Source of the DNA: Actinomycetales bacterium
GTDB taxonomy: Bacteria; Actinomycetota; Actinomycetes; S36-B12
Direction: 5' to 3'
NCBI GenBank assembly: GCA_018970025.1
Contig: JAGWXF010000004.1
Coordinates: 1-64,000, forward strand
Length of the DNA: 64,000 bases
Under the pieces are notes generated by a model. It had not been told where the DNA came from. It saw nothing but the letters and a program-made list of their open reading frames with translations, and did not search any database. Position numbers and translations under genes: made by a program. Below, piece by piece: positions 17,406 through 39,417 of the stretch; positions within the stretch are counted from its first letter, which is position 1, and the number at the start of each line of letters is the position of its first letter.

Positions 17406-17416
17406 CCAGTCGACCG

Positions 17417-18199: not shown

Positions 18200-18222
18200 C
18201 GCACCTCCTCTGCGCTGTTGAT

Positions 18223-19981: not shown

Positions 19982-19986
19982 GGCGA

Positions 19987-20265: not shown

Positions 20266-20331
20266 GGAACTTCCTTTCATCACGTCCCGCTGCGTTGCGG
20301 GGTCGTCGGGTGTGCTGGCGGTGGTCGTGCG

Positions 20332-20577: not shown

Positions 20578-20585
20578 GGCTGCTC

Positions 20586-21056: not shown

Positions 21057-21655
21057 CCCACCCGTCGCAGGGCCTGCTCAGCGGCGTCAGCCGCCGCCCG
21101 TACCTCGGATTCGGTACCGCTGAGGTAGACCCGGCCAGTTGCCCCGACCATCCGGTAGTCGACCACCTTGATCCGCGCAGCCTTCTCTGCCTCATTCGTC
21201 GCCAGGATCGCGTAGCTCGCCGGCTGCATCTCCAGCACGAAGAGCGACTCGCCCGGCAGGGCCATGGAGCCGATCTTGTTGCGGTTGATCAGGAAGGCAT
21301 GCTGCCGATCGATGCGTGGCACGATCCGGGAGGCAAGGATGCTCGGCTTGGTCGCCGCCTGCTGGCTCACGTCGAGTTGATCGAGGACGGCACTGGCGGC
21401 GCTGGTCACCTCGCTGGGGGATCCATGGATCTCCAGGTAGCCGAACTGCCGCTCCACCAGCAGGATGCCCGCGGCTACGTTCGAGTGCTTGAGCGCGACG
21501 TCGGTGAGCGGCTCGATGTCCAGGCCCGGCGCTACCTCGATGATCTGCGCGGCATCATCCGCGCGCGGCAGGGCTCCGCGAATCCAGGTGCCCAGATAGC
21601 ACATCGTCTGCGGCTGCAGCCGGTCGAGGAAGATGAAGGAGCGCAGCTCAGCCAT
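21053..21655 (-). CDS. BMC-T shell protein (tandem BMC domains), second paralogue
   Basis: 200 residues with two fused BMC domains: LRSFIFLDRLQPQTMCYLGT...FGYLEIHGS and INRNKIGSMALPGESLFVLEM...GRVYLSGT. Domain order and key motifs match the other BMC-T of the locus, but it lacks the Lys/Ala tail. Two BMC-T with one BMC-H and one BMC-P is the shell set I recall for the RMM of Mycobacterium smegmatis. Its ATG 21655 follows the aldehyde dehydrogenase stop by 2 nt. Confidence 0.93.
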   Translation of the reverse strand: MAELRSFIFLDRLQPQTMCYLGTWIRGALPRADDAAQIIEVAPGLDIEPLTDVALKHSNVAAGILLVERQFGYLEIHGSPSEVTSAASAVLDQLDVSQQAATKPSILASRIVPRIDRQHAFLINRNKIGSMALPGESLFVLEMQPASYAILATNEAEKAARIKVVDYRMVGATGRVYLSGTESEVRAAADAAEQALRRVG

Positions 21656-21657
21656 GG

Positions 21658-23238
21658 TCAGCCCTTGATGATCTGTCGAAGTTCTTCGATGACCATGCGC
21701 CGGATCTCATCGCGCAGCTCATCGGTGCCGTCGCCGGCCATGGTCGCCGCATCGCCGCGGCCGTTCGTGCGCGGCTCGATCGCGGGTGCCCCCGCCGCAT
21801 TGGATGCCAGCGGATAGGCCGGCACCGCCCCCTGCGGGGCCTGCCACGCATCCAGTCCGCTGAAGTCGGGCATCGGCATGCGGGCATCGGCATTGCACGC
21901 AATGCGCGTGCGATTGACCAGGTGGGCCGGCTGCAGGTTCTCCCCCACCGATGACCTGCCGAAGAAGCCGGTGCCGATCGTCATCGTCGGGGCCAGGTTC
22001 GTCTCGATGCCGGCACTGCCGAGGCTGTTGCCCACGTTCACCGCGACGCGCAGCACGCGTACCCGCGAGGCGTACTCCATGATGGTGCCGGGATCCTCGC
22101 TGTGGATCGCAGCGCTGTGGCCGGCCCCGGTGATGCGGAGCACGGCCATCGCAGCGCTGATGCCTCGCGCCGCATTGGGCACCGTCACCCAGCCAAGCAC
22201 CGGGCAGAGCTTCTCGTGCGCCAGGACCTGCTCGGGAACCACCAGGTCGAATGGCGCGACCAGGATGAGCGTGCCCTTGGGCACCTTGATCCCGGCGGCC
22301 TCGGCGATCTGGGCGGCCGACTTGCCGACCCAGGCGGTATTGAAGTGCCCCTGCTCGAAGATCACGCCGCAGACCCTGGCCACTTGCTCCTCGTCGAGGA
22401 AGGATGCCCCCTCGCGCTTCATCGCCTGCTGCAGCCGCTCGGCGATCGCCTCCTCGGCAATGAGGACGCTTTCATTGGTGCACAGGATCGAGTTGTCAAA
22501 TGACTTGCTGGCGACGATGCGGGCCGCCGCCGCCGGGATGTCGGCCGTGGCATCGACGAGCACCGGGACGTTCCCCGGGCCGACCCCGATCGCCGGGTTG
22601 CCGGATCGATAGGCGGAGCGGACCATGGGCGTGCCGCCGGTGGCGACGATGACATCGACTCGCTCGTCGGTCATCAGCGCATTGATGAGCGGGATGGACG
22701 GCTCCTCGAGGACTTGAATGCACCCATCGGGGGCACCGGCCGCAATGGCCGCATCGCGCATCACCCGGGCGGCCTCGGCACTGCACCGCTTGGCATAGGG
22801 ATGCGGCGAGACGATGATGGCGTTGCGGGTGAGCAGGCACAGCATGATCTTGAACATCACGGTCGCAACCGGGTTCGTGCTGGGCGTCAGGGCGAACACC
22901 ACGCCGGCCGGCCGCGGGATCTCGACGATCTTGCGCGCCTGGTCGATCACGGGCGACACGTAGTCGTCGTCCGCATAGGTATTCCAGATCCCGATCGAAC
23001 AGGCGACGTTCTTCAGGAACTTGTGCTCGGCAACCCCGAACCCGGTCTCGGCGACCGCGGCGTCGGCGAGCTGCCGGGCATGAGCCTCGCCCGCCTGCGC
23101 GGCCGCCATCGCGATGCGCCGCACGGACGCGATGTCGTACGTGGCGAAGGCGCGGGCCGCCCACTCGGCCCGCTCGACCATCGCCCGGCCATGGGGCACA
23201 CCGGCCGGCTCGAGCGGAATGTCGACGAAGGCGCTCAT
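21658..23238 (-). CDS. CoA-acylating aldehyde dehydrogenase of the BMC with C-terminal encapsulation-like helix
   Basis: 526 residues. Related to EutE/PduP: TPSTNPVATVMFKIMLCLLTRN near 118-139, GGTPMVRSAY about 201-210, GPGNVPVLVD, and the catalytic Cys about residue 253 in NSILCTNES. It should oxidise an aldehyde (propionaldehyde or acetaldehyde) to acyl-CoA inside the shell. After the catalytic part comes a Gly/Ala/Pro-rich linker and then a final amphipathic helix, DELRDEIRRMVIEELRQIIKG, which looks like an encapsulation peptide at the C-terminus. The gene is joined to the aminotransferase gene by an ATGA overlap. In RMM loci a homologue holds the same place. Confidence 0.92.
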   Translation of the reverse strand: MSAFVDIPLEPAGVPHGRAMVERAEWAARAFATYDIASVRRIAMAAAQAGEAHARQLADAAVAETGFGVAEHKFLKNVACSIGIWNTYADDDYVSPVIDQARKIVEIPRPAGVVFALTPSTNPVATVMFKIMLCLLTRNAIIVSPHPYAKRCSAEAARVMRDAAIAAGAPDGCIQVLEEPSIPLINALMTDERVDVIVATGGTPMVRSAYRSGNPAIGVGPGNVPVLVDATADIPAAAARIVASKSFDNSILCTNESVLIAEEAIAERLQQAMKREGASFLDEEQVARVCGVIFEQGHFNTAWVGKSAAQIAEAAGIKVPKGTLILVAPFDLVVPEQVLAHEKLCPVLGWVTVPNAARGISAAMAVLRITGAGHSAAIHSEDPGTIMEYASRVRVLRVAVNVGNSLGSAGIETNLAPTMTIGTGFFGRSSVGENLQPAHLVNRTRIACNADARMPMPDFSGLDAWQAPQGAVPAYPLASNAAGAPAIEPRTNGRGDAATMAGDGTDELRDEIRRMVIEELRQIIKG

Positions 23239-24581
23239 CGGCTCCCCCGCAGGCCGCGGACCTCGCGATACGCCTTGCCGATCGCGACCTCGGTGCGATC
23301 GAGCAGCTCCTCGGCGATCTCGGGCTTCAGCAGGATGCCCGGCTTGTACTGCAGCACCCGCGGATCCAGGGTCGAGAAGATCGCCCAGACCCCGTTCTCG
23401 TACAGGTGCTTCATGACGTACTTGGCGCCCTGCGGGTCATCGAACTCCAGGCCCATGACCACGCCGTTCTGCCGGATGCCGATGAACCAGTCCGGGTACG
23501 TCGCCTGGATCTGCCGCAGGCCCCGGCCGATGAAGTCGGAGATGTAGTGCACCATCGACCGGGTCTCGGTCCGCGAGCAGATCTCCAGTGCCTTGATCGC
23601 GGCGATGCACCCGAGCTCGGCGCCGCCGAAGGTGGAGATGTGGCCGAATCCGTCCTCGGTGAGCCAGCCGGCGCACCGCTCGCTGACCAGCACACAGGCG
23701 ATCGGGTAGATCCCCCCGGAGATGCCCTTGCCGGTCACCATGATGTCGGGGGTGATCCCCTCCTTGGTGATCGCCCATAGCTCGCCGGTTCGCATCAGGC
23801 CGGTCTGCACCTCGTCCGCGATGTAGAGGGCGTCGTACTTCTCGCACAGGGCCTTGACCGCCCTGAGGTACCCGGGCTCCGGCAGCGGGAATCCGTACGT
23901 GGCCGGGATGGTCTCCATGATGACCGCGGCGATGTCACGGCCCTGCAGCGCCTCCTCCATCGCGGCGAGGTCATTGAAGGGGACGTGCGGGAAGTCCTCC
24001 GGATTGTCCGACAGGAAGAGCTTGGAGAAGCGCTCGTCTCCCGTGCCGACCGCCAGGCCGGTGTGACCGTGGTAGGCCTTGACGATCGACAGGATGCGGC
24101 GCTTGCCGGTGGCGTGGCGGGCCGTCTTGAGCGCGATGTCGATGGCCTCGCCGCCGCCGGACCCGTAGATCACCTTGGTCAGCCCCGCGGGGGCGGACGC
24201 CACCAATGCCTCCGCCAGGGCCGTCCGGGCAAGGGAGGGGAAGTGGTGATTGCCGACGTCGAAGTGCTGCATGGCGACCGTGACCGCCTGGACGACCTCC
24301 GGGTTGCGATGGCCGAGGTTGTAGGTGCCGCCATTGAGATGGACGTCGATCAGGCGCTTGCCTGACATGTCGTAGATGAAGTACTCCTCGCGCCGGTCGA
24401 TGACCAGCGGGACGCCCGAGTCGATCCAGAACTGGGTCTTGCCCGGATTCCAGTACTCCTTGGACTTCTCGAGGACCTCGGCCTTGGAGGCGAAGGAGAA
24501 GACGCCGTAGTCATAGCGCGGGTGGTCATCCGCGGGGGACTGCTCCGGCGATGCCACGTCAGGATCGTACCGAATGGCCAT
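23235..24581 (-). CDS. Class-III aminotransferase, probable amino-alcohol-phosphate phospho-lyase
   Basis: 448 residues, PLP fold type I. VIYGSGGGEAIDIALKTAR, ADEVQTGLMRTG (PLP ring Asp) and VTGKGISGGIYP (Schiff-base Lys) are clear. Class-III members include ethanolamine-phosphate phospho-lyase; with the adjacent kinase and CoA-acylating dehydrogenase it most likely eliminates phosphate and ammonia from a phosphorylated amino alcohol, giving an aldehyde. A true transaminase role is the alternative. It is the first gene of the minus-strand BMC operon. The start ATG 24581 has no strong ribosome site, and the promoter must lie in the 293-nt divergent region. Confidence 0.83.
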   Translation of the reverse strand: MAIRYDPDVASPEQSPADDHPRYDYGVFSFASKAEVLEKSKEYWNPGKTQFWIDSGVPLVIDRREEYFIYDMSGKRLIDVHLNGGTYNLGHRNPEVVQAVTVAMQHFDVGNHHFPSLARTALAEALVASAPAGLTKVIYGSGGGEAIDIALKTARHATGKRRILSIVKAYHGHTGLAVGTGDERFSKLFLSDNPEDFPHVPFNDLAAMEEALQGRDIAAVIMETIPATYGFPLPEPGYLRAVKALCEKYDALYIADEVQTGLMRTGELWAITKEGITPDIMVTGKGISGGIYPIACVLVSERCAGWLTEDGFGHISTFGGAELGCIAAIKALEICSRTETRSMVHYISDFIGRGLRQIQATYPDWFIGIRQNGVVMGLEFDDPQGAKYVMKHLYENGVWAIFSTLDPRVLQYKPGILLKPEIAEELLDRTEVAIGKAYREVRGLRGSR

Positions 24582-24874
24582 ACCAAATCAAGCCTTTTGA
24601 CCACCTGGGTGCTTGCCGGCAGACCAAACGAGTGTGCTTTGCCGGATATGAGTAGTTTGCTCCGAACCAATGTGGGTCCTGTGCCGTGTGAACACCGCGT
24701 TACTCATACCGGAATTTGGCCGAAATGCTTGAAGCGGTCGATGGGTGCCGACATACTCCCCGGCAAGCCCTGCGACCGCAGTGGCTTACGTCACAGGCGC
24801 CCCCTGTGCGCGAACGCCCGACTGAAGCAGCAGGTTCCACTGAGCGCGCCCCCGGGCGCAAGGATGGATGTCAC
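24582..24874. promoter_or_regulatory. Divergent promoter region of the BMC operon and its permease
   Basis: 293 nt and clearly more AT-rich than its flanks. It must hold promoters for the shell operon (minus) and the permease (plus). TATGAGTA at 24647-24654 and its complement TACTCATA at 24701-24708 face each other, both with CCGG on the outer side, and look like half-sites of an operator, perhaps for the GntR protein encoded at the operon end. GCTTGCCGG at about 24611-24619 recurs inverted as CCGGCAAGC at about 24760-24768. GCGCCCCCGGGCGC near 24845-24860 is a further dyad next to the permease start. Confidence 0.55.
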
Positions 24875-26470
24875 ATGAGCGTCGAGAGTCCGAGCGGGCC
24901 GAACGCCCTCCCCGGAGACCACCAGATCAGTACGAAGGAGCAGGCGAAGCTCAAGGCTGGTGCCGTCGGCCTGGCCGGCGTGCTCTTCATGGCCGTGGCG
25001 AACGCCGCGCCGATCACCGCCATGACCTTCAACGTGCCGATTGCCATCGGATACGGCAACGGCATCGGCGTGTCCGGCGGGTACCTCTTCGCCGCCATCG
25101 TGCTGGCCATCTTCACCATCGGCTTCATCGCGATGGCGAAGTACATCACCACCGCCGGCGCGTTCTACGGATTCATCTCCCAGGGCCTGGGCCAGGTCTG
25201 GGGCATGGCCACCGGCCTGCTGGCTGCCGTCGCCTACATCATCTTCGAGGGCTCGCTCATCGGAGCCTTCGCCTACTTCGGCTCCGAGTACGTGCTCAAG
25301 CCCATGGGCCTCAATGTCAACTGGCTCATCCTGGCAATCATCGCCTGCCTCGTCATCGCCCTGCTCACCTACTACTCGGTGACCCTCGCAGCCGGCATCC
25401 TCAGCGTGACCCTCGTCTGCGAGGTACTCCTGCTGCTCGCTCTCGGCATCAGCGTCCTGCTCAAGGGCGGGCCTGACGGCTTCATGGCCGCCGACACGGT
25501 CAACCCGATTGCGGCGTTCAATGCGCTGCCCGAGGGTGCCTACGGCACCGGCGTGGCAGCAGGGGCAGCCGCCATCGGCATCTTCTTCGCCTTCTGGTCC
25601 TGGGTCGGGTACGAGACCACCGCGGTCTACGGCGAGGAGTCCAAGAACCCCAAGCGCAACGTCCCCCTCGCGACCATCATCGCGGTCGTCGGGCTCGGCG
25701 CCTTCTACACCTTCATCTCGTGGATGGTCGTCGTGGGCAACGGCGCCAAGCAGTCGGTGGAGCTCTCGGCCGGGGCCAGCCCCATTGACCTGTGGATCGG
25801 CCTGGTGGACGCAAGCTTCGGCAGCATCCTGGTGGTCGTCTACAAGGTGCTGGTCGTCGTCGGCTCCTTCGCCTGCGCGATGGCCTTCCACAATGCAGCG
25901 TCGCGCTACATCTACGCCATGGGCCGGGAGAGCGTGACGCCGTTCGTCCGAAGGACCCTCGGCGCCGTCAACGCCAAGCATGGCTCGCCGGCGATCGCCT
26001 CGTTCGTCCAGACCGCGATCACCATCATCCTGTGCGTGCTGTTCGCCCTCTTCACGAACGTGTACGTGGAGGGTGCTGCGACACCGGACCTGATCCCGTA
26101 CGTGAACCTCTACGGCCTGCTCGCCCTCATCGGCACCGCGATGATCCTGATCGTGCAGACCATCGTGTCAATTGCCGTCATCTGGTACTTCTGGGTCAAG
26201 AAGGTGCACAAGGGCAATGTGCTCACCACGCTCATCGCACCGATCATCGGCGCACTGGGGATGCTGTACGCCCTGTACCTGCTGTGGGTGAACCAGGAGT
26301 TCGCCGCCGGCCTGGCCGCCGACAGCCTGGTGTTCAAGGGCATGCCCTACTACGTGATCGGCGTGCTCGTGATCGGCATCGTGTACGCAGTCTTCGTCCG
26401 AATCGCGAAGCCCCAGGTATATGCGGAGATCGGCCGAACAACCCTCGAAGAAGCCCACGAGCGCGTCTAG
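24875..26470 (+). CDS. APC-family amine/amino acid permease of the BMC locus
   Basis: 531 residues with about 12 membrane helices. The opening LKAGAVGLAGVLFMAVANAAPITAM is the usual first helix of APC transporters, with the GSxxx-like substrate loop and later FWSWVGYETTAVYGEES in helix 6. It would import the amino alcohol or amine processed by the microcompartment. AAGGA upstream of ATG 24875 sets the start; an in-frame ATG at 24716 is in the promoter region and rejected. It is transcribed divergently from the shell operon, and such permeases are common in RMM loci. A strong hairpin follows its stop by 7 nt. Confidence 0.88.
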   Translation: MSVESPSGPNALPGDHQISTKEQAKLKAGAVGLAGVLFMAVANAAPITAMTFNVPIAIGYGNGIGVSGGYLFAAIVLAIFTIGFIAMAKYITTAGAFYGFISQGLGQVWGMATGLLAAVAYIIFEGSLIGAFAYFGSEYVLKPMGLNVNWLILAIIACLVIALLTYYSVTLAAGILSVTLVCEVLLLLALGISVLLKGGPDGFMAADTVNPIAAFNALPEGAYGTGVAAGAAAIGIFFAFWSWVGYETTAVYGEESKNPKRNVPLATIIAVVGLGAFYTFISWMVVVGNGAKQSVELSAGASPIDLWIGLVDASFGSILVVVYKVLVVVGSFACAMAFHNAASRYIYAMGRESVTPFVRRTLGAVNAKHGSPAIASFVQTAITIILCVLFALFTNVYVEGAATPDLIPYVNLYGLLALIGTAMILIVQTIVSIAVIWYFWVKKVHKGNVLTTLIAPIIGALGMLYALYLLWVNQEFAAGLAADSLVFKGMPYYVIGVLVIGIVYAVFVRIAKPQVYAEIGRTTLEEAHERV

Positions 26471-26477: not shown

Positions 26478-26520
26478 GCATGAAGGGGTGCACGCCAGCA
26501 CGGCGTGCACCCCTTCATGC
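26478..26520 (+). terminator. 19-bp perfect hairpin after the permease gene
   Basis: Arms 26478-26496 and 26502-26520 are perfect complements around a 5-nt loop, GCATGAAGGGGTGCACGCC against its reverse complement. No U tract follows, so it is either a GC-rich terminator of the actinobacterial type or an mRNA-stabilising hairpin. The right arm runs into the direct repeats. Confidence 0.75.
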
Positions 26521-26609
26521 TTCACCGATGCACGCCGGCACGACGCGCATCGGAAACGATGCTTCACCGATGCACGCCGGTACGGCGCGCACGGAAACGA
26601 TGCTTCACC
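26517..26609 (+). repeat. Tandem ~42-bp direct repeats before the amidase gene
   Basis: Copy A 26517-26558 (42 bp) and copy B 26559-26599 (41 bp) both start ATGCTTCACCGATGCACGCC and end GGAAACG; a third partial copy ATGCTTCACC covers 26600-26609. Copy A also folds on itself (CCGATGC...GCATCGG). They share TGCACGCC with the hairpin just upstream, suggesting the whole block arose by duplication of that element. Confidence 0.8.
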
Positions 26610-26630: not shown

Positions 26631-27659
26631 ATGACCCCACCACCGGGCACCCTGGACTGGGCGCCTGACCCCTCGGCCGACCCGACGACCTATGCCTACA
26701 CATTCGGCGGGGTCGCCCCGGTCGCATCGGTGCGGCCTGGAACCGTGGTGCGGACCTGGACCATGGATTGCTTCGGCGGCCGGGTCCGCAAGACGTCTGA
26801 CCTCGCCAGCGAGGTCTGCGATCCGCGCCTGCTCAACCCGCAGTCCGGCCCGTTCTTCGTCGAGGGTGCCCGGCCCGGCGACACCCTGGCCGTGCACTTC
26901 ATCTCGATCGAGCCGCGCGAGGCCTGGGGCGTGAGCTCGACCGTGCCCTTCTTCGGCTCGCTGACCGCCACCCCGACCACCGCGATGCTGCATCCCGCGC
27001 TGCTGGAGCGCACCTGGATCTACCAGATCGACCGCGCCGAGCGCGTCGTGCGCTACGTCGCAGCCGACACCGACTTCACCGCCGCCCTGCCGCTGGATCC
27101 GATGCACGGGACCGTCGGAGTCGCGCCAGCCCTCGGCGAGGTGCGCTCATCGCTGGCACCGGGTGACTGGGGCGGGAATATGGATACGCCGGAGATGCGC
27201 GCCGGGGTCACCTGCTACCTCGGGGTCAATGTCGAGGGCGGCCTGTTCAGCCTCGGTGATGGGCATGCCCGCCAGGGCGAGGGGGAGACCTGCGGGGTCG
27301 CGGTCGAGTGCGCCATGGACACCACCCTCATCCTCGATGTCATCAGCGGCTCCCCGACGGCTTGGCCGCGGCTGGAGAGCGACGACTACCTGATGACGAC
27401 CGGCTCAGCCAGGCCGCTGGAGGATGCCTTCCGGATCGCCCATCAGCAGATGGTGCTGTGGGTTGCCGAGCTGACCGGGATGAGCACGATCGACGCGTAT
27501 CAATACGTCTCGCAGGCAGCACTGACGCCGATCGCCAACGTCGTTGACACGAACTACACGGTGGTGTGCAAGATCCCGAAGTCGCTGCTGAAGGGCGTGG
27601 TCGCCATGGGCGGGATGCACGACCGGATGCGAAGGGCTGCAGCCGCATGGCGCGGGTGA
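26631..27659 (+). CDS. Acetamidase/formamidase family protein
   Basis: 342 residues of the FmdA/AmdA family, which hydrolyses formamide or short amides to ammonia and the acid. Seen: RTWTMDCFGGRV near 40, PFFVEGARPGDTLAVHF, a long glycine-rich stretch NVEGGLFSLGDGHARQGEGE in which the metal/active-site Asp-His pair falls, and a late YQYVSQAA. ATG 26631 has GGAGG 5 nt upstream; the frame is open through the repeats to 26505 but that part is not protein-like. Its 3-prime end overlaps the next gene. Why it heads a dehydratase operon is not clear; it may release nitrogen from an amide form of the substrate. Confidence 0.85.
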   Translation: MTPPPGTLDWAPDPSADPTTYAYTFGGVAPVASVRPGTVVRTWTMDCFGGRVRKTSDLASEVCDPRLLNPQSGPFFVEGARPGDTLAVHFISIEPREAWGVSSTVPFFGSLTATPTTAMLHPALLERTWIYQIDRAERVVRYVAADTDFTAALPLDPMHGTVGVAPALGEVRSSLAPGDWGGNMDTPEMRAGVTCYLGVNVEGGLFSLGDGHARQGEGETCGVAVECAMDTTLILDVISGSPTAWPRLESDDYLMTTGSARPLEDAFRIAHQQMVLWVAELTGMSTIDAYQYVSQAALTPIANVVDTNYTVVCKIPKSLLKGVVAMGGMHDRMRRAAAAWRG

Positions 27660-28093
27660 CGCGATTCGAGGTCGATCTCGACCTCGCCCAGCGCATGGCC
27701 GCCGCAGCCCGAGGCTGTGCCCAGGCCGATGGGGCCCTGGTCTCGGTCGCCATCGTGGATGCCGGAGGGAATCTGCTGGTCTTCGAGCGGATGGACGGCG
27801 CGGAGATCGCCGGCCCGGTCCTGGCACGCGACAAGGCCTACACCGCAGTCGCCCACCGCATCGGCACCCACGAACTGACCGCGCTCGTCGCGCCGGGCGC
27901 GCCCCTTGCCGGCATGTACGCCCAGGACGCCGGCCGCTATGTGGCCTTCCCCGGCGGCCTGCCGCTATGGGACGCTGACCGGGTGATCGGCGGCATCGGC
28001 GTCAGCGGCGGGAGCGCAGAGCAGGATCGCCGTGCTGCCGAGGCAGCCCATGAGATCTACCGGATTGCCAGCGGGATCCAGGAGGCACCATGA
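27647..28093 (+). CDS. GlcG/HbpS heme-binding family protein (PduO C-terminal-like)
   Basis: 148 residues, a single DUF336-type domain: VAIVDAGGNLLVFERMDGA, ARDKAYTAVAHR and GGLPLWDADRVIGGIGVSGGSAEQD are standard. The same domain forms the C-terminal half of PduO, the adenosyltransferase of diol-utilisation loci, where it binds heme. Here the adenosyltransferase half is missing. It overlaps the amidase gene by 13 nt and the dehydratase start by 4 nt (ATGA), so it belongs to the dehydratase operon and may support B12 handling or redox state. Confidence 0.85.
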   Translation: MARVTRFEVDLDLAQRMAAAARGCAQADGALVSVAIVDAGGNLLVFERMDGAEIAGPVLARDKAYTAVAHRIGTHELTALVAPGAPLAGMYAQDAGRYVAFPGGLPLWDADRVIGGIGVSGGSAEQDRRAAEAAHEIYRIASGIQEAP

Positions 28094-30336
28094 CCGAGCC
28101 GGTCATCGGCCGCTTCCGCTTCATGGATGCCCAGCGGGTCAACCTCGATGGGTTCGCGGTCGAGGACCCATCCCTGGGCCTGGTGGCGTTCGATGCACCG
28201 ACGGACCCGATGCCCTGCCTGGTCATCCGCGATGGCGTGGTCGAGGAGATGGACGGCAAGGAGCGGGCCGAGTTCGACCTCATCGATCAGTTCATCGCCG
28301 ACCACGGCCTGGACCTCTCGGCCGCCGACGAGGCGATGGCCCTCGATGAGCTCGACTTCGCCCGGATGATCGTCGATCTCGGCGTGAGCCGCGCTGAGCT
28401 CATCCGGCTGGCCGCGGGGATGACGCCCGCGAAGCTGGCCCGGTGCCTGTCGCACCTGCGTCCAGCAGAGCTGACGCTCGCCCTGACCAAGTGCCGAGCC
28501 CGCCGGACCCCCAGCAATCAGGCCCACGTGACGAACCGCTCCGATGACCCGCTGCTGCTGGCCGCTGACGCCGCCACCGCCGCCGCATTCGGATTCCGCG
28601 AGATCGAGACCACCGTCCCCGTCCTGGGTGACGCGCCATCCAATGCCATCGCCGTCAGCGTCGGTGCCGCCGTCGGCTCGCCGGGCATCCTGGTGCAGTG
28701 CTCCGTCGAGGAGGCCCTCGAGCTGCAGATGGGCATGCGCGGCCTGGTCTCCTACGCCGAGACCGTCTCGCTCTACGGCACCGAGCAGATCTTCATCGAC
28801 GGAGACGACACGCCATGGTCGAAGGCCTTCCTCACCTCGGCCTATGCCAGTCGCGGGATCAAGATGCGGGTGACCTCCGGTGGCGGGGCCGAAGCGCTGA
28901 TGGGCAGTGCCGAGGGCAAGTCGATGTTCTACCTCGAGGCACGATGCGTGGCATTGGCCCGGGCGATCGGGGCCCAGGGAGTGCAGAACGGCGGCATCGA
29001 CTCCGCATCGGTGGCCGGTGCCGTGCCCAGCGGCGTCCGCAGCCTGATGGCCGAGAACCTCATGGTGATGCTGCGCAACCTGGAGTCCTGCACCGGCAAC
29101 GATGCGCTGATGAGCGAGTCGGACGTGCGGCGTACCTCGCGCACCCACCCGATCTTCATCGGCGGCACCGACTTCATCTGCAGCGGCTTCGGCTCGATCC
29201 AGCGGTACGACAACATGTTCGGCCCCAGTCAGTGGAATGCCGAGGACATCGACGACTACCTGGCCATGCAGCGGGACTGGGGGGTCGACGGCGGCCTGCG
29301 CACCGCGAGCGAGCCGGAGGTCGCGCGGCTGCGCGAGCGCGCCGTGGCCGCCGTCCGCGCGGTCTACGACGCACTCGGCCTGGCTGACTTCGACGACGCC
29401 TGGGCGGCGCAGGCGATCGACGCGGCCGGCTCGAAGGATGTCCCGGCCGCCGACCTCATGACTCCCCTGGGCGCATCGCGCATCATCATGGACGCCGGCA
29501 TCACCATGCTCGATGTCGTCGCGGCGCTCGATGAGGCAGGCTTCGAGGCCGAGGCCGAGCGACTGCTCGACATGCTGCGGGTGCGGGTGGCGGGCGACTA
29601 CCTGCAGACCGCCGCGATCTACACCGAGGACATGCGGGTGCTCTCCCTGGTGACTGATCCCAATGACTATGCCGGCCCGGGCACCGGGTACGCCCCCTCC
29701 GCTGCGCGGCAGCAGCAGATCGACGGCATCCGCCAGGCACGCTCGGTCGATGACCTGCGCCATGAGCAGCAGGCCTTCGTCCGGGACGATCTCATCGTCG
29801 TCGGCCCGGCGCAGGCGAGCACCGACCCGCGTGACGTCGTCATCGGCGTCTCTCCGGCGACAGGGCTCGCGATCGGGCGGACCCTGTGCGGGCTGACCAC
29901 CGTCGAGGCCATCGAGGAGCTACTCGCCGGGCTGGAGGAGGAGGGGTGCGTCGGCAGGATCGTCCGCATCAACGACACCATCGACCTCGGACTCATCGGC
30001 CTCACGGCGGCCCGGATGGCCGGGTCCGGCATCGGCATCGGCCTGCAGGCGAAGGGAACGGCCTTGATCCACCGACGTGACCTCACGCCATTGGCAAACC
30101 TCGAGCTCTACAGCGTTGCCCCCACGCTCACTCGCGCCGCCTATCGGCAGTTGGGCATCAATGCCGGACGCCATGCCAAGGGATCCACGCCAGAGCCCCA
30201 GCGGAATCCCTATTCGGACGAGGCCATCGAGGCGAGGTACCACACGACTGTCGTCTCCCTGGTGGCGATCGAGCGGCAGTGCTGCCGCCCCCGATCCGAG
30301 CCCGAGCAGCTGCTCCTCCACGGCAGGCCGGCATGA
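28090..30336 (+). CDS. B12-dependent diol/glycerol dehydratase, fused large and medium subunits
   Basis: 748 residues, where PduC/DhaB1 alone is about 555. Residues 1-555 match the large subunit, with FMDAQRVNLDGF at the start, VQCSVEEALELQMGMRGL, and TSGGGAEALMG...MFYLEARC; from about residue 570 (DDLIVVGPAQASTDPRDVVIGVSPA...GLQAKGTALIHRRDLTPLANLELY) the sequence is the medium subunit. The enzyme dehydrates 1,2-propanediol to propionaldehyde or glycerol to 3-hydroxypropionaldehyde using adenosylcobalamin. The N-terminal helix that targets PduD-type medium subunits to microcompartments is lost in the fusion, and no other encapsulation peptide is seen, so the enzyme may be cytosolic. It overlaps both neighbours by ATGA. 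Confidence 0.93.
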   Translation: MTEPVIGRFRFMDAQRVNLDGFAVEDPSLGLVAFDAPTDPMPCLVIRDGVVEEMDGKERAEFDLIDQFIADHGLDLSAADEAMALDELDFARMIVDLGVSRAELIRLAAGMTPAKLARCLSHLRPAELTLALTKCRARRTPSNQAHVTNRSDDPLLLAADAATAAAFGFREIETTVPVLGDAPSNAIAVSVGAAVGSPGILVQCSVEEALELQMGMRGLVSYAETVSLYGTEQIFIDGDDTPWSKAFLTSAYASRGIKMRVTSGGGAEALMGSAEGKSMFYLEARCVALARAIGAQGVQNGGIDSASVAGAVPSGVRSLMAENLMVMLRNLESCTGNDALMSESDVRRTSRTHPIFIGGTDFICSGFGSIQRYDNMFGPSQWNAEDIDDYLAMQRDWGVDGGLRTASEPEVARLRERAVAAVRAVYDALGLADFDDAWAAQAIDAAGSKDVPAADLMTPLGASRIIMDAGITMLDVVAALDEAGFEAEAERLLDMLRVRVAGDYLQTAAIYTEDMRVLSLVTDPNDYAGPGTGYAPSAARQQQIDGIRQARSVDDLRHEQQAFVRDDLIVVGPAQASTDPRDVVIGVSPATGLAIGRTLCGLTTVEAIEELLAGLEEEGCVGRIVRINDTIDLGLIGLTAARMAGSGIGIGLQAKGTALIHRRDLTPLANLELYSVAPTLTRAAYRQLGINAGRHAKGSTPEPQRNPYSDEAIEARYHTTVVSLVAIERQCCRPRSEPEQLLLHGRPA

Positions 30337-30689
30337 CCCAGGCGCGCTCCGGCAGGCAGGTCGACGAGGTCACCCTGGACGCGGTTCGGCGCGGTGAGGT
30401 GGCGGCCGATGACGTCCGCATCCATCCCCACACCCTGCTGCACCAGGCCCAGGTCGCGCAGGATCACGCCAATCCGCAGCTCGCAGCGAACTTCCGACGT
30501 GCCGCCGAGCTGGCCCTGCTGGATGACGCGCAGGTGATGGCCACCTACGAGGCCCTCCGCCCGGGTCGCTCGGCCTACGCCGACCTCGTTGCCATCGCCG
30601 ACGACCTGCAGCACCGGGGGGCCGTGCTCAATGCCGCACTCGTCCGCGAGGCGGCCGATGCCTACCGCGCCCGGGGCCTGCTGACGTGA
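30333..30689 (+). CDS. Diol/glycerol dehydratase small subunit
   Basis: 118 residues. LTLDAVRRGEVAADDVRIHPHTLLHQAQVA-like text (here starting EVTLDAVRRGE) and LRPGRSAYADLVAIADDL are the conserved parts of PduE/DhaB3. The protein starts close to the conserved core with only about ten extra residues, so the N-terminal targeting helix of PduE is missing. It begins in an ATGA overlap with the fused subunit and ends overlapping the reactivase GTG. Together with the upstream protein it would form the complete enzyme. Confidence 0.9.
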   Translation: MTQARSGRQVDEVTLDAVRRGEVAADDVRIHPHTLLHQAQVAQDHANPQLAANFRRAAELALLDDAQVMATYEALRPGRSAYADLVAIADDLQHRGAVLNAALVREAADAYRARGLLT

Positions 30690-32401
30690 CCCTCGTGGCC
30701 GGCGTGGATATCGGCAACGCCACCACCGAGATCGTGCTCGTCGACCTGCCCTCCATGCGCCCGGTCGCCTGGGATCGAGCCCGGACGATCGGCCTGAAGG
30801 GATCTGCCGAGGCCTCACGTGCGGCCGGGCGGTTGCTGAGCCGCATCGAGGCACGTCTTGGCCAGCGGGCCGAGACCGCGATCCGCACCCACCAGTATCC
30901 CGTCCTCACCCGACGCATCGACCTGCCCCTGCAGCCGCCGAGCACCGGCCGACTGCGGCGGGTAGCCGAGCCGAGCGCGACTCCCGGAGGCACCGGCTTC
31001 GCGGTGGGCCGACCGATCGACCTCGACACCCCAGTCACCGAGCGGGACCGGGGTGCAGCCGGGCCGCTCATTGCCGTGAGCCGCGACCCGCTCGGCTACC
31101 GTCACACGATCGACGTGCTCGATCGCTGGCGTGACCTCGGCCTGGACGTTCGCGGTGTCCTGCTCGCCGGCGATGAGGCAACCCTGGTCTCGCGCCGCCT
31201 TTGCACGGCGTTGCCCATCGTCGACGGGGCCGATGCCGACCTGGCTCTGCAGGCCCGGCTCATCGCGATCGAGGTCGCGCCTGCTGGCCACGCCTGCCGC
31301 GAGCTCAGCGACCCCCTGCGCCTGGCCGCGAGCCTGGGCGGCGACGGACCTGACGCCCATGCCCATGCGGTCGCGATGGCGGCCGCGGTCACCGGCCATC
31401 GCTGCGCCGCCATTGCCCTGCTGGCCGACCTCCCGGATGGCCTGCCCCCTGACGATCACGCGCCGGCCGCCTCGACAGCCATGGCCCTGTTCGGTGACGG
31501 CAGCAGCGTCCCCCTGACCCAGGCAGGCAGCGTCCTGAAGACCGGTGTCCCCACGATCGTGGGCTACCGAGAGCCGGACGGCACCGACGTACCCGCCACG
31601 GACCTATGGCTGGTCGATCCGATGACCCTCGACCGCATCCCCGGCCTTCGCCAGGACCACGCACGCATGTCCAGGCTGGCCGTCAGCTCCATCGCAGCGA
31701 CGACAGAGGCAACCAGCATGACCCCCAACCTCGGGGGTGGCTGGGCCGGCGAGATCCGGGTCATCGGCACGGAGGCCGACGCCGCCCGATGGGGCGCCTG
31801 CAGTACGCCGGGCGTGGCCACCGACGCCATGGTGGTCGACCTCGGCGGTGGCACCATCGACGTGATCGTCGGCGATGAGGCGTGGACGGGCGCCGGGTGC
31901 GGCGACCTGATGACCCTGGCGACAGCGATTGCGACGGACACCTCCCGGGCCACGGCCGAGTGGGTCAAGCGCGGGCCAGCCTGGCGGGTCGAGACCCCGC
32001 ACCTGGTCGTCGACGAATCCGGTGATCGTCGATTCCTGGACGCGGCTGCCGCGCATGGCTCGGTGGGCTGGCTGGTGACCGGCGGCCCAAGCGGAGCCCT
32101 GCCGTTCACCCGAACGCTGACCGCGGACCAGTGGCGCACCATCCGACTGGCGCTCAAGCAGGAGGTCTTCGGCCGGAACCTCATGCGCGGGCTCACCCGC
32201 CTCCGGGCGGCCCAGGCACGCGACATCGTCCTGGTCGGCGGCCCGGCCGGCGACGAGGAGATCCTCGAGGCCGCGCATGGCGCGATCCCCCAGGCTCGGA
32301 TCGGCCGGGCGAATGTCGCCGGCGTCCTCGGTCATCGCTGGGCCGTGGCGTACGGCCTGGTCCTGCTCCATCACGCGGACGCGACCTCGCCGCATCCCTG
32401 A
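30686..32401 (+). CDS. Diol dehydratase reactivase, large ATPase subunit
   Basis: 571 residues, slightly shorter than PduG/DdrA (about 610). The actin/HSP70-like ATPase motifs are visible: VAGVDIGNATTEIVLVD at the start and MVVDLGGGTIDVIVGD about residue 390. It swaps damaged cobalamin out of the inactivated dehydratase at the cost of ATP. The small reactivase subunit (PduH/DdrB) normally paired with it is not found nearby. GTG 30686 overlaps the small-subunit stop (GTGA). It ends the operon 29 nt before an unrelated exporter gene. Confidence 0.9.
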   Translation: MTLVAGVDIGNATTEIVLVDLPSMRPVAWDRARTIGLKGSAEASRAAGRLLSRIEARLGQRAETAIRTHQYPVLTRRIDLPLQPPSTGRLRRVAEPSATPGGTGFAVGRPIDLDTPVTERDRGAAGPLIAVSRDPLGYRHTIDVLDRWRDLGLDVRGVLLAGDEATLVSRRLCTALPIVDGADADLALQARLIAIEVAPAGHACRELSDPLRLAASLGGDGPDAHAHAVAMAAAVTGHRCAAIALLADLPDGLPPDDHAPAASTAMALFGDGSSVPLTQAGSVLKTGVPTIVGYREPDGTDVPATDLWLVDPMTLDRIPGLRQDHARMSRLAVSSIAATTEATSMTPNLGGGWAGEIRVIGTEADAARWGACSTPGVATDAMVVDLGGGTIDVIVGDEAWTGAGCGDLMTLATAIATDTSRATAEWVKRGPAWRVETPHLVVDESGDRRFLDAAAAHGSVGWLVTGGPSGALPFTRTLTADQWRTIRLALKQEVFGRNLMRGLTRLRAAQARDIVLVGGPAGDEEILEAAHGAIPQARIGRANVAGVLGHRWAVAYGLVLLHHADATSPHP

Positions 32402-34159: not shown

Positions 34160-36604
34160 ATGGCCGATCGCGCGCAGGTCGTCATCATCGGCGGCGGCAT
34201 CGTCGGAGCGAGCGTCGCGTACCACCTCACCACGCTCGGGATGACGGATGTGCTGCTTATCGAGCAGGGTCAGCTCTCGTCCGGAACCACCTGGCATGCC
34301 GCCGGCCTGGTCGGCCAGCTGCGGGCAACGGAGGCCGGCACCCGGCTCGTGCAGTACTCCGCGCGCCTGTACCAGTCGCTGGAGGCCGAGACCGGCCTGG
34401 CAACTGGGTACAAGCAGTGCGGGGGCGTCACCGTCGCGCGCACCCCGGAGCGGATGGTCCAGTTGCTGCGCACGGCCGCGGCCGCCGAGGCCTTCAACCT
34501 CGAGTGCGAGATCTGGACGCCTGCGCAGGCCAAGGCCAAGGTCCCGATCCTGGAGACCTCGGACCTCCAGGGCGCGATCTGGCTGCCGCTGGACGGAACG
34601 GCCAATCCCACCGACGTCACGCAGTCGCTCGCCAGGGGTGCGCGGATGCGCGGTGCCCGCATCATGGAGCGCACTCGGGTCATCGGGATCACCACCGATC
34701 GCGGGGTCGTCACCGGCGTGCAGACCGACGCCGGGGAGATCGAGGCCGAGATTGTGGTCAACTGCGCCGGCCAGTGGGCCAAGGCCGTCGGCGCCATGGC
34801 CGGGGTGACCGTCCCGCTCCACTCGGCGGAGCACTTCTACGTGGTCACCGACCAGATCAAGGGGGTCGATCGCATGCTGCCGATCCTGCGCGACCCGGAC
34901 GGCTACACCTACATGAAGGAGGAGGTGGGCGGCCTGGTCGTCGGCGGGTTCGAGCCTGTCGCCAAGCCCTGGGTCGCTCCCGACCAGCTGCCGTACCCAT
35001 TCGAGTTCCAGCTGCTGGACGAGGACTGGGACCATTTCGCGATCCTGATGGACAGTGCCCTGCATCGGGTTCCGGTGCTGCAGGAGACCGGGATCCGGAA
35101 GTTCTACAACGGCCCGGAGAGCTTCACCCCGGATAACCAGTTCATCCTCGGCCAGGCGCCATCCCTGCGGAACTTCTTCGTCGCCGCCGGGTTCAACTCG
35201 GTTGGCATCGCCTCAGCAGGAGGGGCCGGCAATGCACTGGCCCAGTGGATCGTCGCCGGCGAGCCGCAGTCGGACCTGATGAGCGTCGACATCCGCCGCT
35301 TCGCCGGCTTCAACGGGAACAACGCCTGGCTGCATGACCGGGTCGGCGAGGTCCTCGGCCTGCACTACGCCGTCCCGTGGCCGAACCGGGAGTTCCTCAC
35401 CGCCCGGCCCTTCCGCCGCTCCCCCGTCCACCAGCGCCTCGAGCAGGCCGGCGCCTGCTTCGGGTCGCGGATGGGCTGGGAGCGTCCCAACTTCTTCGCA
35501 CCCCCCGGAAACGACCCGGTCATCGAGTACGCCTGGGGCAAGCAGAACTGGATCGGCTGGGTCGATGCCGAGCAGCGTGCCGCCCGCGAGGCGGTGGCCC
35601 TGTTCGACCAGACCTCCTTCGGCAAGCTGCTGATCACCGGGGCCGATGCGCACGTCCTGCTGCAGTGGCTGTGCACTGCCAACGTCGACGTCCCGGTCGG
35701 GCGCACGGTCTACACCGGCGTGCTCAACGAGCGGGGCACCTACGAGGCCGACGTCACCCTGACCAGGATCGCCCATGACGAGTACCTGTGGGTGACCAGC
35801 GCGGGGTCGCCGGTTCGTGATCGCGACTGGATCCTGCGCCATATCACGCCGGGGCAGCAGGTCAACGTCGTCGACGTCAGCAATGCCCTGGCCGTCTTCG
35901 GGGTCATGGGGCCGCGCTCGCGCGAACTGCTGCAGTCCCTGACCCGATGCGACCTCGGCAACGAGGCGTTCGGCTTCGGCACCAGCCGGGAGATCGACCT
36001 GGGCTACTCGACCGTGCGCGCCACCCGGATCACCTACGTCGGCGAGCTCGGCTGGGAGCTGTACGTCCCGGTGGAGTTCGCCGTCGGGGTCTACGACCTG
36101 CTCGTGCAGGCCGGTGAGCCGCTCGGCCTGGCCCAGGCGGGCTACTACGCCATCAATGCCCTGCGGCTGGAGAAGGGCTACCGCGCCTTCGGCGCCGAGC
36201 TGACGCCTGACTACGGCCCGGTGGAGGCCGGGCTGCTCTTCGCCACCAAGCTGCGCACCGACATCCCCTTCATCGGCAGGACGGCGGTGGAGTCCGCTCG
36301 GGAGCACGGGGTCCGGCGACGGCTGGTGAGCTTCGTGCTGGACGACCCGGATGCCATGATGTGGGGCGGGGAGCTGCTGCTACGGGATGGCATCGGCACC
36401 GGGCAGGTGACGTCAGCGGCCTACGCGACGACCACGGGCGCCTGCGTGGGGCTTGCCTACGCCTGGCATCCCGATGGGGAGCTCATCACGGATGACGACC
36501 TGACGACAGGTGCCTGGCAGGTCAATGTCAGCGGCACGCTGATACCGGCCCGGATCAGCCTGCGGGCTCCCTACGACCCCGCGAACGCACGCATCCGCGC
36601 CTAG
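34160..36604 (+). CDS. Dimethylglycine/sarcosine dehydrogenase-like flavoenzyme (DAO + GcvT domains)
   Basis: 814 residues. The N-terminal half is an FAD-dependent DAO domain (VVIIGGGIVGASVAYHL), with SSGTTWHAAGL; the His there is the covalent FAD site of DMGDH and SDH. Then comes the FAO_M linker (ANNAWLHDRVGEVLG), and from about 440 a GcvT-like folate domain with VPVGRTVYTGVLNERG, TYVGELGWELYVP and ALRLEKGYRAFGAELT. It should demethylate an N-methylated glycine derivative with transfer of the one-carbon unit to tetrahydrofolate. Neighbouring amine-catabolic genes fit, but which methylamine is used is unclear. Confidence 0.88.
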   Translation: MADRAQVVIIGGGIVGASVAYHLTTLGMTDVLLIEQGQLSSGTTWHAAGLVGQLRATEAGTRLVQYSARLYQSLEAETGLATGYKQCGGVTVARTPERMVQLLRTAAAAEAFNLECEIWTPAQAKAKVPILETSDLQGAIWLPLDGTANPTDVTQSLARGARMRGARIMERTRVIGITTDRGVVTGVQTDAGEIEAEIVVNCAGQWAKAVGAMAGVTVPLHSAEHFYVVTDQIKGVDRMLPILRDPDGYTYMKEEVGGLVVGGFEPVAKPWVAPDQLPYPFEFQLLDEDWDHFAILMDSALHRVPVLQETGIRKFYNGPESFTPDNQFILGQAPSLRNFFVAAGFNSVGIASAGGAGNALAQWIVAGEPQSDLMSVDIRRFAGFNGNNAWLHDRVGEVLGLHYAVPWPNREFLTARPFRRSPVHQRLEQAGACFGSRMGWERPNFFAPPGNDPVIEYAWGKQNWIGWVDAEQRAAREAVALFDQTSFGKLLITGADAHVLLQWLCTANVDVPVGRTVYTGVLNERGTYEADVTLTRIAHDEYLWVTSAGSPVRDRDWILRHITPGQQVNVVDVSNALAVFGVMGPRSRELLQSLTRCDLGNEAFGFGTSREIDLGYSTVRATRITYVGELGWELYVPVEFAVGVYDLLVQAGEPLGLAQAGYYAINALRLEKGYRAFGAELTPDYGPVEAGLLFATKLRTDIPFIGRTAVESAREHGVRRRLVSFVLDDPDAMMWGGELLLRDGIGTGQVTSAAYATTTGACVGLAYAWHPDGELITDDDLTTGAWQVNVSGTLIPARISLRAPYDPANARIRA

Positions 36605-36617
36605 TGCACGCAACGGA

Positions 36618-36658
36618 TCGGGCCGGGCCAGGAGCGCGAACCTCCCGACCCGGCCCGA
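36618..36658. terminator. Hairpin between convergent genes
   Basis: TCGGGCCGGG (36618-36627) and CCCGGCCCGA (36649-36658) can pair over a 21-nt loop between two genes ending at 36604 and 36675. Probably a bidirectional terminator. Confidence 0.55.
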
Positions 36659-36674
36659 ACCGGTGCGAACTGCC

Positions 36675-38363
36675 CTAGACGCTCTGGGTTCCCGGAGGCT
36701 GGTGGATGCCCTTGCCCTCATGCTCCAGGGCAATCTCATCCGCTGAGCTCATGCCGGCCGGCAGGTCGATCGTCGTCTTCGGGCCGGTGAACCACTTCTT
36801 CGCCGACAGGTGCCAGCCGATCCACAGGGCAATCAGCAGCGCGCCGAGCACGATGGGCGCGTAGTTGACGAACTTCCAGTCGAAGGCAACCTCCGCCTCG
36901 CTCGGCGAGCCGAGCAGGCCTCGCATGAACCCAGGCGCACCCGCCGGGTAGAGCGGCAGGATGAAGAACACCGAGGTGATGACGATCTCCAGGACTGCCA
37001 GCGGTGCCATCCACTTCCACTTGCTGCCGAGGTTCCAGGAGCCCTGCTTGAAGGCCGAGCCGACCTTCCAGCGGTAGAAGATCGGGATGGCGAATGCCAG
37101 GTACAGCCCGATCACGCCGATCGACACGATGGCGAAGAACGCGGTCACGCTGTAGATGGGCGCATCATCCGTCCCGATGTTCACCTTCCACAGGGCCGGC
37201 AGCGTCAGGATGAAGCCGACCACCGCCACGGCGATCACCGCCATGACCGGGGTCTTGCTCCTGTTCAGCCGCGACCAGTACTTCGCTCCCGGGACGGCGC
37301 CGTCGCGGCTGAACGCGAACAGCATCCGGGAGGCGGAGGTCAGGCAGGCGGTCGTGCAGAACAGCTGGCCGATGGTCGCGACCATGAGCACGGTGCCGGA
37401 CATCGCCGGCGTCAGCGCCTGGTCGAAGATCACCTGCACGCCACCCCCGCCGGCCGAGACAGCCTGGGGATCCTGGACGGCGAACAGGAAGGCAAGCAGC
37501 AGGATCCAGCCGCCGATGGCCGAGTAGAAGATCGACCGCCAGATGCCCTTCGCCGCGCCGTTGGCCGCACCCTGGGTCTCCTCCGACAGGTGGGCGGAGG
37601 CGTCATAGCCGGTGATCGTGTACTGGGTCAGCAGGAAGCCCAGGGGCAGCACGTAGAACCAGAAGCCCGGCCCCCCGGTCTCGCCGCCGTACAGGCCACC
37701 GGTGTTGTTGACCTCGCCGAAGAAGACATTGCCGATATCCCAGTGGGTGGCACCTTCCTTGAGGAAGAACACCAGGACGATTACCACGAAGGACGCTCCG
37801 GCCACATGCCACCACACCGAGATGTTGTTGAAGATGGCCAGCAGCTGGCTGGAGAAGATGTTGACGACCGAGACGAAGACCAGGATCACCACGAAGATGA
37901 CGAAGACCCGCTCCAGTGAGTAGCCAGCCGCCCATGACTCGCTGAACCGGCTCATCGCATAGTCGAAGAAGGTCGCGGCACCGTAGGCAACCGAGGCGAC
38001 GATCGCGACCAGGCCGGCAAGATTGAGCCAGCCGGTGTAGTAGCCGGCCTTCACGCCGCCGAGCTTGGATGCCCACCAGTAGATGCCGCCGCTGGTCGGG
38101 TAGGCCGAGACGAGCTCGGACATGCAGAAGCCAATGAGCAGGATGAAGATCGCGATGACCGGCCACCCGATCGCGATGGCAATGGGGCCGCCGTTGTTCC
38201 AGCCGAAGTAGAACGTGGTGAAGCAGCCGGCAAGGATCGAGATGATCGAGAAGGAGATCGCGAAGTTGGAGAATCCGCTCCACGTCCGACTGAGTTCCTG
38301 CTTGTAGCCGAGCTCGGCGAGTTTCGCCTCATCGTCATTGAGCTTGGTTGCTTCAGACACCAT
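36675..38363 (-). CDS. APC-family amino acid/polyamine permease
   Basis: 562 residues, about 12-14 membrane helices. LAELGYKQELSRTWSGFSNFAISFSIISILAG is the typical cytoplasmic start and first helix of amino-acid/choline-like permeases (AAT family near BAT1 and GABA permeases). Later: GYDASAHLSEET and SRDGAVPGAKYWSRLNR. It would import an amine, choline or amino acid. Three starts compete (38384, 38363, GTG 38360); AGGAGG just before 38363 favours one of the last two. It is next to a kinase of choline-kinase type on the same strand, with 69 nt between, suggesting joint expression. Confidence 0.85.
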   Translation of the reverse strand: MVSEATKLNDDEAKLAELGYKQELSRTWSGFSNFAISFSIISILAGCFTTFYFGWNNGGPIAIAIGWPVIAIFILLIGFCMSELVSAYPTSGGIYWWASKLGGVKAGYYTGWLNLAGLVAIVASVAYGAATFFDYAMSRFSESWAAGYSLERVFVIFVVILVFVSVVNIFSSQLLAIFNNISVWWHVAGASFVVIVLVFFLKEGATHWDIGNVFFGEVNNTGGLYGGETGGPGFWFYVLPLGFLLTQYTITGYDASAHLSEETQGAANGAAKGIWRSIFYSAIGGWILLLAFLFAVQDPQAVSAGGGGVQVIFDQALTPAMSGTVLMVATIGQLFCTTACLTSASRMLFAFSRDGAVPGAKYWSRLNRSKTPVMAVIAVAVVGFILTLPALWKVNIGTDDAPIYSVTAFFAIVSIGVIGLYLAFAIPIFYRWKVGSAFKQGSWNLGSKWKWMAPLAVLEIVITSVFFILPLYPAGAPGFMRGLLGSPSEAEVAFDWKFVNYAPIVLGALLIALWIGWHLSAKKWFTGPKTTIDLPAGMSSADEIALEHEGKGIHQPPGTQSV

Positions 38364-38432
38364 GCCTCCTGTTGAGATGGACACCGCCTTGCGGCGAGGC
38401 CTTCAGGCGGACGATAGCGGCGCAGGGCACCC

Positions 38433-39404: not shown

Positions 39405-39411
39405 CAGCCGA

Positions 39412-39417
39412 AGGCTA
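39412..39417 (-). promoter_or_regulatory. Putative -10 element for a leaderless mRNA (gene at 39404)
   Basis: TAGCCT on the minus strand, 7 nt, GTG 39404. Confidence 0.45.

Follow-up and report, generated by a model that had tools for sequence, protein, structure and literature searches.

A fused B12-dependent diol dehydratase linked to a microcompartment locus of the RMM2 type in an uncultured actinobacterium

The 64,000-nucleotide window analysed here (contig C24 of a 2.64-Mb genome in 39 contigs, judged 89% complete, from an uncultured, freshwater-type actinobacterium) carries a B12-dependent diol dehydratase with fused large and medium subunits, encoded divergently from the core genes of a Rhodococcus and Mycobacterium bacterial microcompartment (RMM; BMC for bacterial microcompartment). 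The locus belongs to the established RMM2 type, and its dehydratase is of the known fused kind; the arrangement of the two is a variant one. Fused dehydratase and RMM genes are found together in tens of loci, and their pairing is therefore not due to chance, and the dehydratase and the RMM probably work together on a common substrate. On balance, we lean towards an unencapsulated dehydratase feeding aldehyde to the CoA-acylating aldehyde dehydrogenase (AldDH) of the RMM2-type locus, where two routes would converge. In the first, an amino alcohol would be converted to an aldehyde by a kinase and a class III phospho-lyase in turn; in the second, a vicinal diol would be converted to an aldehyde by the B12 dehydratase; a single aldehyde dehydrogenase within the shell would receive the aldehyde from both. 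The candidate diol is 1,2-propanediol, or a diol whose C3 bears a polar or cationic group. The dehydratase, composed of the large-medium chain and a small subunit, would be cytosolic or act at the surface of the shell. Its activity would be maintained by a reactivase large subunit alone, with the swap partner missing and the medium domain tethered, and by an adenosyltransferase encoded elsewhere. We infer these reactions, the cytosolic location, the convergence on an aldehyde and reactivation by docking to the tethered domain from the genes themselves. The acidic C3 pocket is the part of the system most worth testing.

Relation to known RMM loci and diol dehydratases

Axen, Erbilgin and Kerfeld (2014) described RMM1 loci without and RMM2 loci with diol dehydratase genes, noted that these genes lie on the opposite strand, and proposed either that the dehydratase goes unused by the compartment or that the compartment is bifunctional (PMC4207490); the use by RMM2 of its own dehydratase has been an unsettled question since 2014. 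The large-medium fusion was reported from Mycobacterium, Mesorhizobium and Hyphomicrobium (PMC4777399, PMC7674605), and both RMM-dehydratase linkage and fusion are thereby already published (PMC4207490; PMC4777399; PMC7674605). The window resembles RMM2 (PMC4207490) in its core of GntR regulator, short-chain dehydrogenase/reductase (SDR), phosphotransferase, shell proteins, AldDH, aminotransferase and permease and in the opposite strand of the dehydratase, but its permease heads the dehydratase strand rather than joining the core, its operon includes an FmdA amidase, and a hairpin parts the permease from the remainder. The absence from RMM2 of the hydrolases of RMM1 is a reported difference and not a strict definition (PMC4207490); an FmdA-family amidase sits in the window's dehydratase operon, and may or may not correspond to an RMM1 hydrolase.

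The window's enzyme shares with the Mycobacterium, Mesorhizobium and Hyphomicrobium fusions a single alpha-beta chain accompanied by a small subunit, whereas reactivation-factor genes are reported to be absent there (PMC4777399) and a reactivase large subunit is present here. Compared with the diol/glycerol dehydratases of Klebsiella (1dio, 1iwp; 9vij with fused chains), it shows the same fold, the same metal and catalytic residues and about 50% identity, but it is naturally fused, lacks the PduD/PduE extensions, carries Asp in place of Ser301 and Ala in place of Gln336, and is not accompanied by a reactivase small subunit. In common with the Pdu microcompartment, a B12 diol dehydratase and an acylating aldehyde dehydrogenase share a gene neighbourhood, whereas the window's dehydratase is without targeting peptides and an RMM shell set and amino-alcohol enzymes replace the Pdu set.

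Gene organisation and domain architecture

The dehydratase operon consists of five plus-strand genes with overlapping ends (26634-32401), encoding an FmdA/AmdA-family amidase (26634-27659; PF03069, 91 bits; ATG start near 26631), an HbpS-like (PduO-C/GlcG-like) protein (27650-28093; PF03928, 116 bits), the fused large-medium dehydratase of 748 amino acids (28090-30336; PF02286 and PF02288 in one frame), a small subunit of 118 amino acids without N-terminal extension (30333-30689; PF02287, 124 bits, and alignment) and a reactivase large (alpha) subunit without small-subunit partner (30686-32401; PF08841 (DDR), 142 bits; PF18427 (swiveling domain), 58 bits). This tight operon and the APC-family permease ahead of it (24866-26470, plus strand; PF13520, 102 bits) diverge from the RMM core on the minus strand (16608-24581). 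A sequence-only reading of the window had placed the dehydratase beside an RMM locus, which proved correct, the core being complete, and just behind its permease, which holds in that the dehydratase follows the permease but not in immediate adjacency, as the FmdA and HbpS genes intervene. The PduO-C-like protein which it had singled out is indeed present as the HbpS-like gene, but such proteins also accompany ordinary split dehydratases. In the pseudomonadotan genome G574, isochorismatase-family and glutamine-amidotransferase-family proteins (L151:11780-13389) stand between the dehydratase small subunit and ABC genes; with this pair and the FmdA of the window, amidase-like genes are recurrent companions of the dehydratase.

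The 748-residue fusion, also foreseen, is seen in a single open reading frame, with a full-profile match to Dehydratase_LU at residues 8-554 (777 bits) and a match to Dehydratase_MU at residues 604-701 (84 bits), so that the large, medium and small domains of a B12-dependent diol/glycerol dehydratase (PF02286, PF02288 and PF02287) are all encoded. The AlphaFold2 model of the fused protein (mean pLDDT 76, pTM 0.71, confidence low at 337-372) matches solved large subunits with a target TM-score of 0.88-0.89 and medium subunits with 0.89-0.94 (1iwp/1dio). The 754-residue PDB chains of the 9vij series, which are named alpha and beta subunit, are also close matches and, from their length and sequence, appear to be engineered K. 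pneumoniae fusions, consistent with the engineering reports in PMC7674605.

Conservation of the linkage between dehydratase and RMM genes

One scan of genome contigs yielded 47 related dehydratase loci, with RMM core genes on the same fragment in 35; among the 12 without RMM genes, eleven lie on short contigs or run out at their RMM end, and L041 is RMM-free for about 10 kb upstream. Within the window's order (166 genomes), the fused gene was found in 34 genomes and an RMM-type BMC-T gene in 37 (39 including two distant ones), 33 being common to both (Fisher p about 3e-29, uncorrected for kinship). In the single exception, G014, the gene is cut at a contig end, and L057, apparently the same contig, has the AldDH, class III aminotransferase-fold (AT3) and permease genes alongside. 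The layouts vary. In some the dehydratase lies divergently behind the permease and in others it diverges directly; it is convergent at the GntR end in the Nocardioides type, follows GntR collinearly in G424 and L079, and is collinear with an ABC transporter in pseudomonadotan genomes. Among cultured bacteria, Nocardioides agariphilus carries an RMM2 locus (L052).

Separate lineages show the same pairing. A dehydratase clade II (about 50% identity to the window for G574) occurs with SDR, kinase, AT3, AldDH and shell genes in five pseudomonadotan RMM loci, the genomes having been sampled within the phylum or class to which the pseudomonadotan relatives belong; dehydratase, small subunit, ABC genes and RMM genes follow in this order on a single strand in G574, G1108, G1268 and G1198, and in G1235 the dehydratase is on the same strand at the opposite side of the shell genes. 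In G561 (L138, L139), a window-type dehydratase (77%) stands ahead of ABC genes together with a divergent RMM core (AT3 68%, BMC-T1 68%), the reverse of G424, where the dehydratase is 68% identical to the window's and the core is closer (AT3 82%, BMC-T1 81%). Since these identities run in opposite directions, dehydratase and core in G561 have different histories and are yet together, which indicates that a dehydratase was transferred into a different RMM lineage and retained. In G840, the dehydratase is found with a permease, SDR (61%), kinase (50%) and AT3 (57%), and no shell gene was matched in the roughly 58 kb examined. On Agrobacterium and Shinella plasmids, a fused dehydratase adjoins SDR, phosphotransferase, class III aminotransferase and GntR genes, of which the aminotransferase (28%), SDR (32%) and kinase (unmatched) are too distant from those of the RMM to be counted as orthologues. 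A second, Agrobacterium-like aminotransferase/kinase pair (35%, 32%) lies directly downstream of the dehydratase operon in G052 (L087:14034-16823).

The linkage is thus not confined to this genome, which was one of the two circumstances in which the sequence-only reading would have given up a connection. On the other, independent regulation of the dehydratase, the signs are mixed: here a conserved hairpin lies between the permease and dehydratase genes, and in other lineages the clusters are collinear. The reading's alternative that the two systems are only neighbours is disfavoured by the recurrence in 35/47 loci, 33/34 genomes and several separate lineages and layouts. In a fuller form, this alternative holds that dehydratase and RMM are separately regulated, independent neighbours joined by the clustering of small-alcohol catabolism genes, and we regard it as quite improbable: the opposite strands, the conserved hairpin after the permease and the fused enzymes of G419 and G233, whose genomes are without any BMC gene, speak for it, and Axen et al. 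were inclined to it (PMC4207490), but the linkage repeats in separate lineages and layouts, among them collinear clusters and a transferred dehydratase, and the co-occurrence within the order is near-perfect. Because the pairing is kept across lineages, including the transferred dehydratase and the shell-free version, RMM2 compartments would seem to use their dehydratase, and functional coupling appears more likely than mere adjacency.

Absence of Pdu-type targeting peptides

The match to the medium subunit begins at model position 35 and that to the small subunit at position 56 of 174, so that the N-terminal parts which bear the Pdu encapsulation peptides are missing; the alignment agrees for the small subunit, and both the removal of the medium-subunit N-terminus by the fusion and the lack of a peptide on the small subunit had been correctly anticipated. 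No PduD- or PduE-like extension was seen in the alignment at the N-terminus, linker or C-terminus of the fused protein or in the actinobacterial-type small subunit, nor was a peptide-like terminus seen in about 45-50 relatives. Scanning related loci for an amphipathic pattern gave no terminal match in the dehydratase, small subunit, reactivase, HbpS or FmdA proteins and one linker match in the dehydratase loci; the pattern picks up PduD but misses PduE and every AldDH terminus, and is for this reason supporting evidence only. The window's enzyme thus lacks the N-terminal peptides which mark the medium and small subunits of a Pdu-type encapsulated dehydratase, and is most likely cytosolic or at the shell surface on this ground.

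That the dehydratase is instead RMM cargo, brought in through a non-canonical signal or through its attachment to another cargo protein, is very doubtful; the genomic linkage would suit it and signals beyond PduD/PduE-type peptides are conceivable, but none of the dehydratase, HbpS, FmdA and reactivase proteins of related loci has a terminal amphipathic peptide. The proposal that a cytosolic dehydratase would feed propionaldehyde to the compartment stands in part, as it fits the missing peptides and the linkage, but the substrate pocket differs from those of propanediol and glycerol dehydratases.

Active site and C3 pocket

In K. oxytoca numbering, Q141, H143, E170, T172, E221, T222, Q296, D335, S362 and F374 are invariant in 47/47 aligned rows of clade I, and the window's enzyme retains the metal and catalytic residues Q141, H143, E170, E221, Q296, D335 and S362. 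Its D304 and A339 correspond to K. oxytoca Ser301 and Gln336, the Ser/Gln pair of the C3 pocket, which determines specificity in characterised enzymes, being replaced. Asp301 and Ala336 are found together in all clade-I rows (47/47) and in all six clade-II enzymes having RMM-like SDR-kinase-AT3 modules, and split enzymes have Ser301 and Gln336 in 8/8. Among other fused enzymes, Asp301 is combined with Thr, Asn or Cys at position 336 (L077, L078, L064, L065, L149, L150) and Ser301 with Ala336 (L076, L173); the standalone enzyme of G419 (61% identical) has Asn at position 336, against Ala in the window's enzyme. L174 (G1106), unaligned over the pocket, was left out of the comparison. The pocket thus tracks gene context, an association given here as a pattern alone because it amounts on the tree to two independent contrasts (sign test p = 0.5). 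The signature nevertheless offers a two-residue handle on the dehydratase's substrate.

Published work puts Ser301 next to the C3-OH when glycerol is in the pro-S orientation, and the replacements S301A and Q336A change both the inactivation and the kinetics of the K. oxytoca enzyme (PMC7674605). An Asp at position 301 may favour a cationic C3 group. It is conceivable, though on the unlikely side, that the enzyme's substrate is a diol whose C3 carries a polar or cationic group, such as 3-amino-1,2-propanediol, the hydroxylated analogue of 1-amino-2-propanol; Asp301 would hold this group, making the dehydratase an amino-diol enzyme of the amino-alcohol pathway. The distribution of Asp301/Ala336 and Ser/Gln described above, the position of Ser301 opposite the glycerol C3-OH (PMC7674605) and the persistence of the linkage to amino-alcohol enzymes without a shell in G840 are in line with such a substrate; a search of the available literature, however, found no paper on it, the evolutionary contrasts number two, AlphaFold confidence is low around 337-372, and Paracoccus yeei TT13 uses propylene glycol. 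The narrower proposal that Asp301/Ala336 specialises the RMM-linked fused dehydratase for a C3-amino or other polar-C3 vicinal diol is a shade more tentative still; if true, RMM2 would handle amino alcohols and amino diols by two parallel routes, and not propanediol. An RMM2 locus has been reported in P. yeei TT13 (PMC8156839). This strain was isolated on propylene glycol, for which its authors propose a lactate route, reporting no pdu operon (PMC5773746); by analogy, its growth weakly favours propanediol as the substrate.

The change in the pocket may also serve mainly to lessen mechanism-based inactivation, the substrate still being 1,2-propanediol or glycerol, and erosion of the reactivase, first of its small subunit and then altogether, would be a possible consequence. 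We rate this as unlikely. S301A and Q336A make the K. oxytoca enzyme less prone to inactivation by glycerol (PMC7674605 Table 1), and fused D301 enzymes occur with the reactivase large subunit only or with no reactivase genome-wide (G840, G897, G657, G574); the same mutations to Ala, however, raise Km and lower kcat on propanediol (PMC7674605), and an Asp could form a stronger hydrogen bond to the 3-OH, a contact believed to favour inactivation.

Reactivation and adenosylcobalamin supply

The second PF02288 gene expected for a reactivase small subunit is absent across the whole 89%-complete genome, as the sequence-only reading had suspected from the locus, and only the large subunit of a DdrAB-type pair is encoded. 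Such a gene is absent from 19/20 genomes with a fused dehydratase and present in 4/5 with a split one; the fused genomes are not independent for this count, since 16/20 belong to one order. The absence of a small reactivase from fused systems is not absolute, since a second PF02288 match, albeit a weak one, adjoins the reactivase of G266. No reactivase gene of any kind was found in four pseudomonadotan fused genomes and G233. All 42 aligned rows of the solo reactivase large subunit keep two Asp residues, at Kp positions 168 and 185 of the reference sequence; we take these to be Mg ligands at the small-subunit interface, and their invariance makes it possible that the solo reactivase docks onto the tethered medium domain. 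With its neighbouring medium domain tethered, the solo reactivase provides a naturally occurring test case for the subunit-swap model. The adenosyltransferase, thought to be missing, is absent from the locus but encoded on another contig (C28:53015-53521; PF01923, 207 bits). No cobalamin riboswitch was found within the window.

Weighing the proposed coupling

Several points weigh against a cytosolic dehydratase which supplies the RMM AldDH. Axen et al. considered it likely that the compartment makes no use of the dehydratase (PMC4207490), a hairpin separates the permease from the dehydratase operon, and the genome of L041 carries the enzyme with no BMC gene found, making it, within the available part of that genome, an exception to the association between pocket and context. 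The peptide pattern is of limited sensitivity, missing the known PduE peptide. Propanediol is perhaps not the substrate, since the changes Ser301 to Asp and Gln336 to Ala lie in the C3 pocket, and the P. yeei authors attribute propylene glycol use to lactate dehydrogenases (PMC5773746). The coupling, location and activity of the dehydratase are, moreover, predictions from gene content.

Hairpin between permease and dehydratase operon

A perfect 19-bp hairpin (26478-26520, plus strand; fold z = -6.4) lies directly after the permease stop, ahead of the dehydratase operon. In 24/28 related loci measured, a stem of 12-20 bp is found 7-42 bases past the permease stop, whereas three loci have 10-bp stems and L040 has no hairpin; the position is kept, the sequences differ between loci, and T runs follow some. 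The hairpin may act in partial termination or mark a processing site, and a separate promoter after it is unlikely in L018 because only 13 bases separate it from FmdA. In the window, two copies of AAACGATGCTTCACC with a spacing of 41 bases follow the hairpin (26478-26609). A palindromic Gibbs search for a GntR operator common to the divergent AT3-permease regions gave 10.5 bits against 8.6 for shuffled sequences and no consistent site.

The RMM core and neighbouring genes

With the permease, the minus-strand core makes up the RMM2 set, the diol dehydratase genes lying within the locus on the opposite strand. It comprises a GntR-family regulator (16608-17405; an orthologue is in the equivalent position of related RMM loci), a 1-amino-2-propanol dehydrogenase-like SDR (17417-18199; NCBIfam SDR matches) and an APH-type, (S)-1-amino-2-propanol kinase-like protein (18238-19236; weak kinase-family matches, start possibly further upstream), the last two being kept in RMM loci. 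The shell genes encode a second BMC-T-type protein (19214-19981; 49% identity to the other BMC-T, no Pfam match of its own), a BMC-H protein (19987-20283; 74-91% conserved across related loci), a BMC-P (vertex) protein (20332-20577; assigned from position and conservation among related RMM loci) and a BMC-T protein (21053-21655; PF00936, 43 bits). A small RMM protein of no Pfam family (20586-21056) has an encapsulation-peptide-like N-terminus, the amphipathic pattern being present in 14/26 orthologues and in the window's copy. The AldDH (21658-23238) has acetaldehyde-CoA dehydrogenases as its top NCBIfam matches, and AT3, a putative phospho-lyase (23235-24581), matches NCBIfam class III aminotransferases and has orthologues 57-90% identical.

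Beyond the core, consecutive open reading frames at 13875-16572 resemble ferric-reductase-like, FMN-binding-like and ApbE-like proteins, judged by the appearance of their translations alone. On the other side (34160-40895), further amine-type genes lie nearby. One encodes a dimethylglycine/sarcosine dehydrogenase-like protein with GCV_T domains (Pfam); the others, named by sequence resemblance alone, are a glutamine-synthetase-like gene and additional copies of an APC permease and an APH-type kinase, the second of each in the window.

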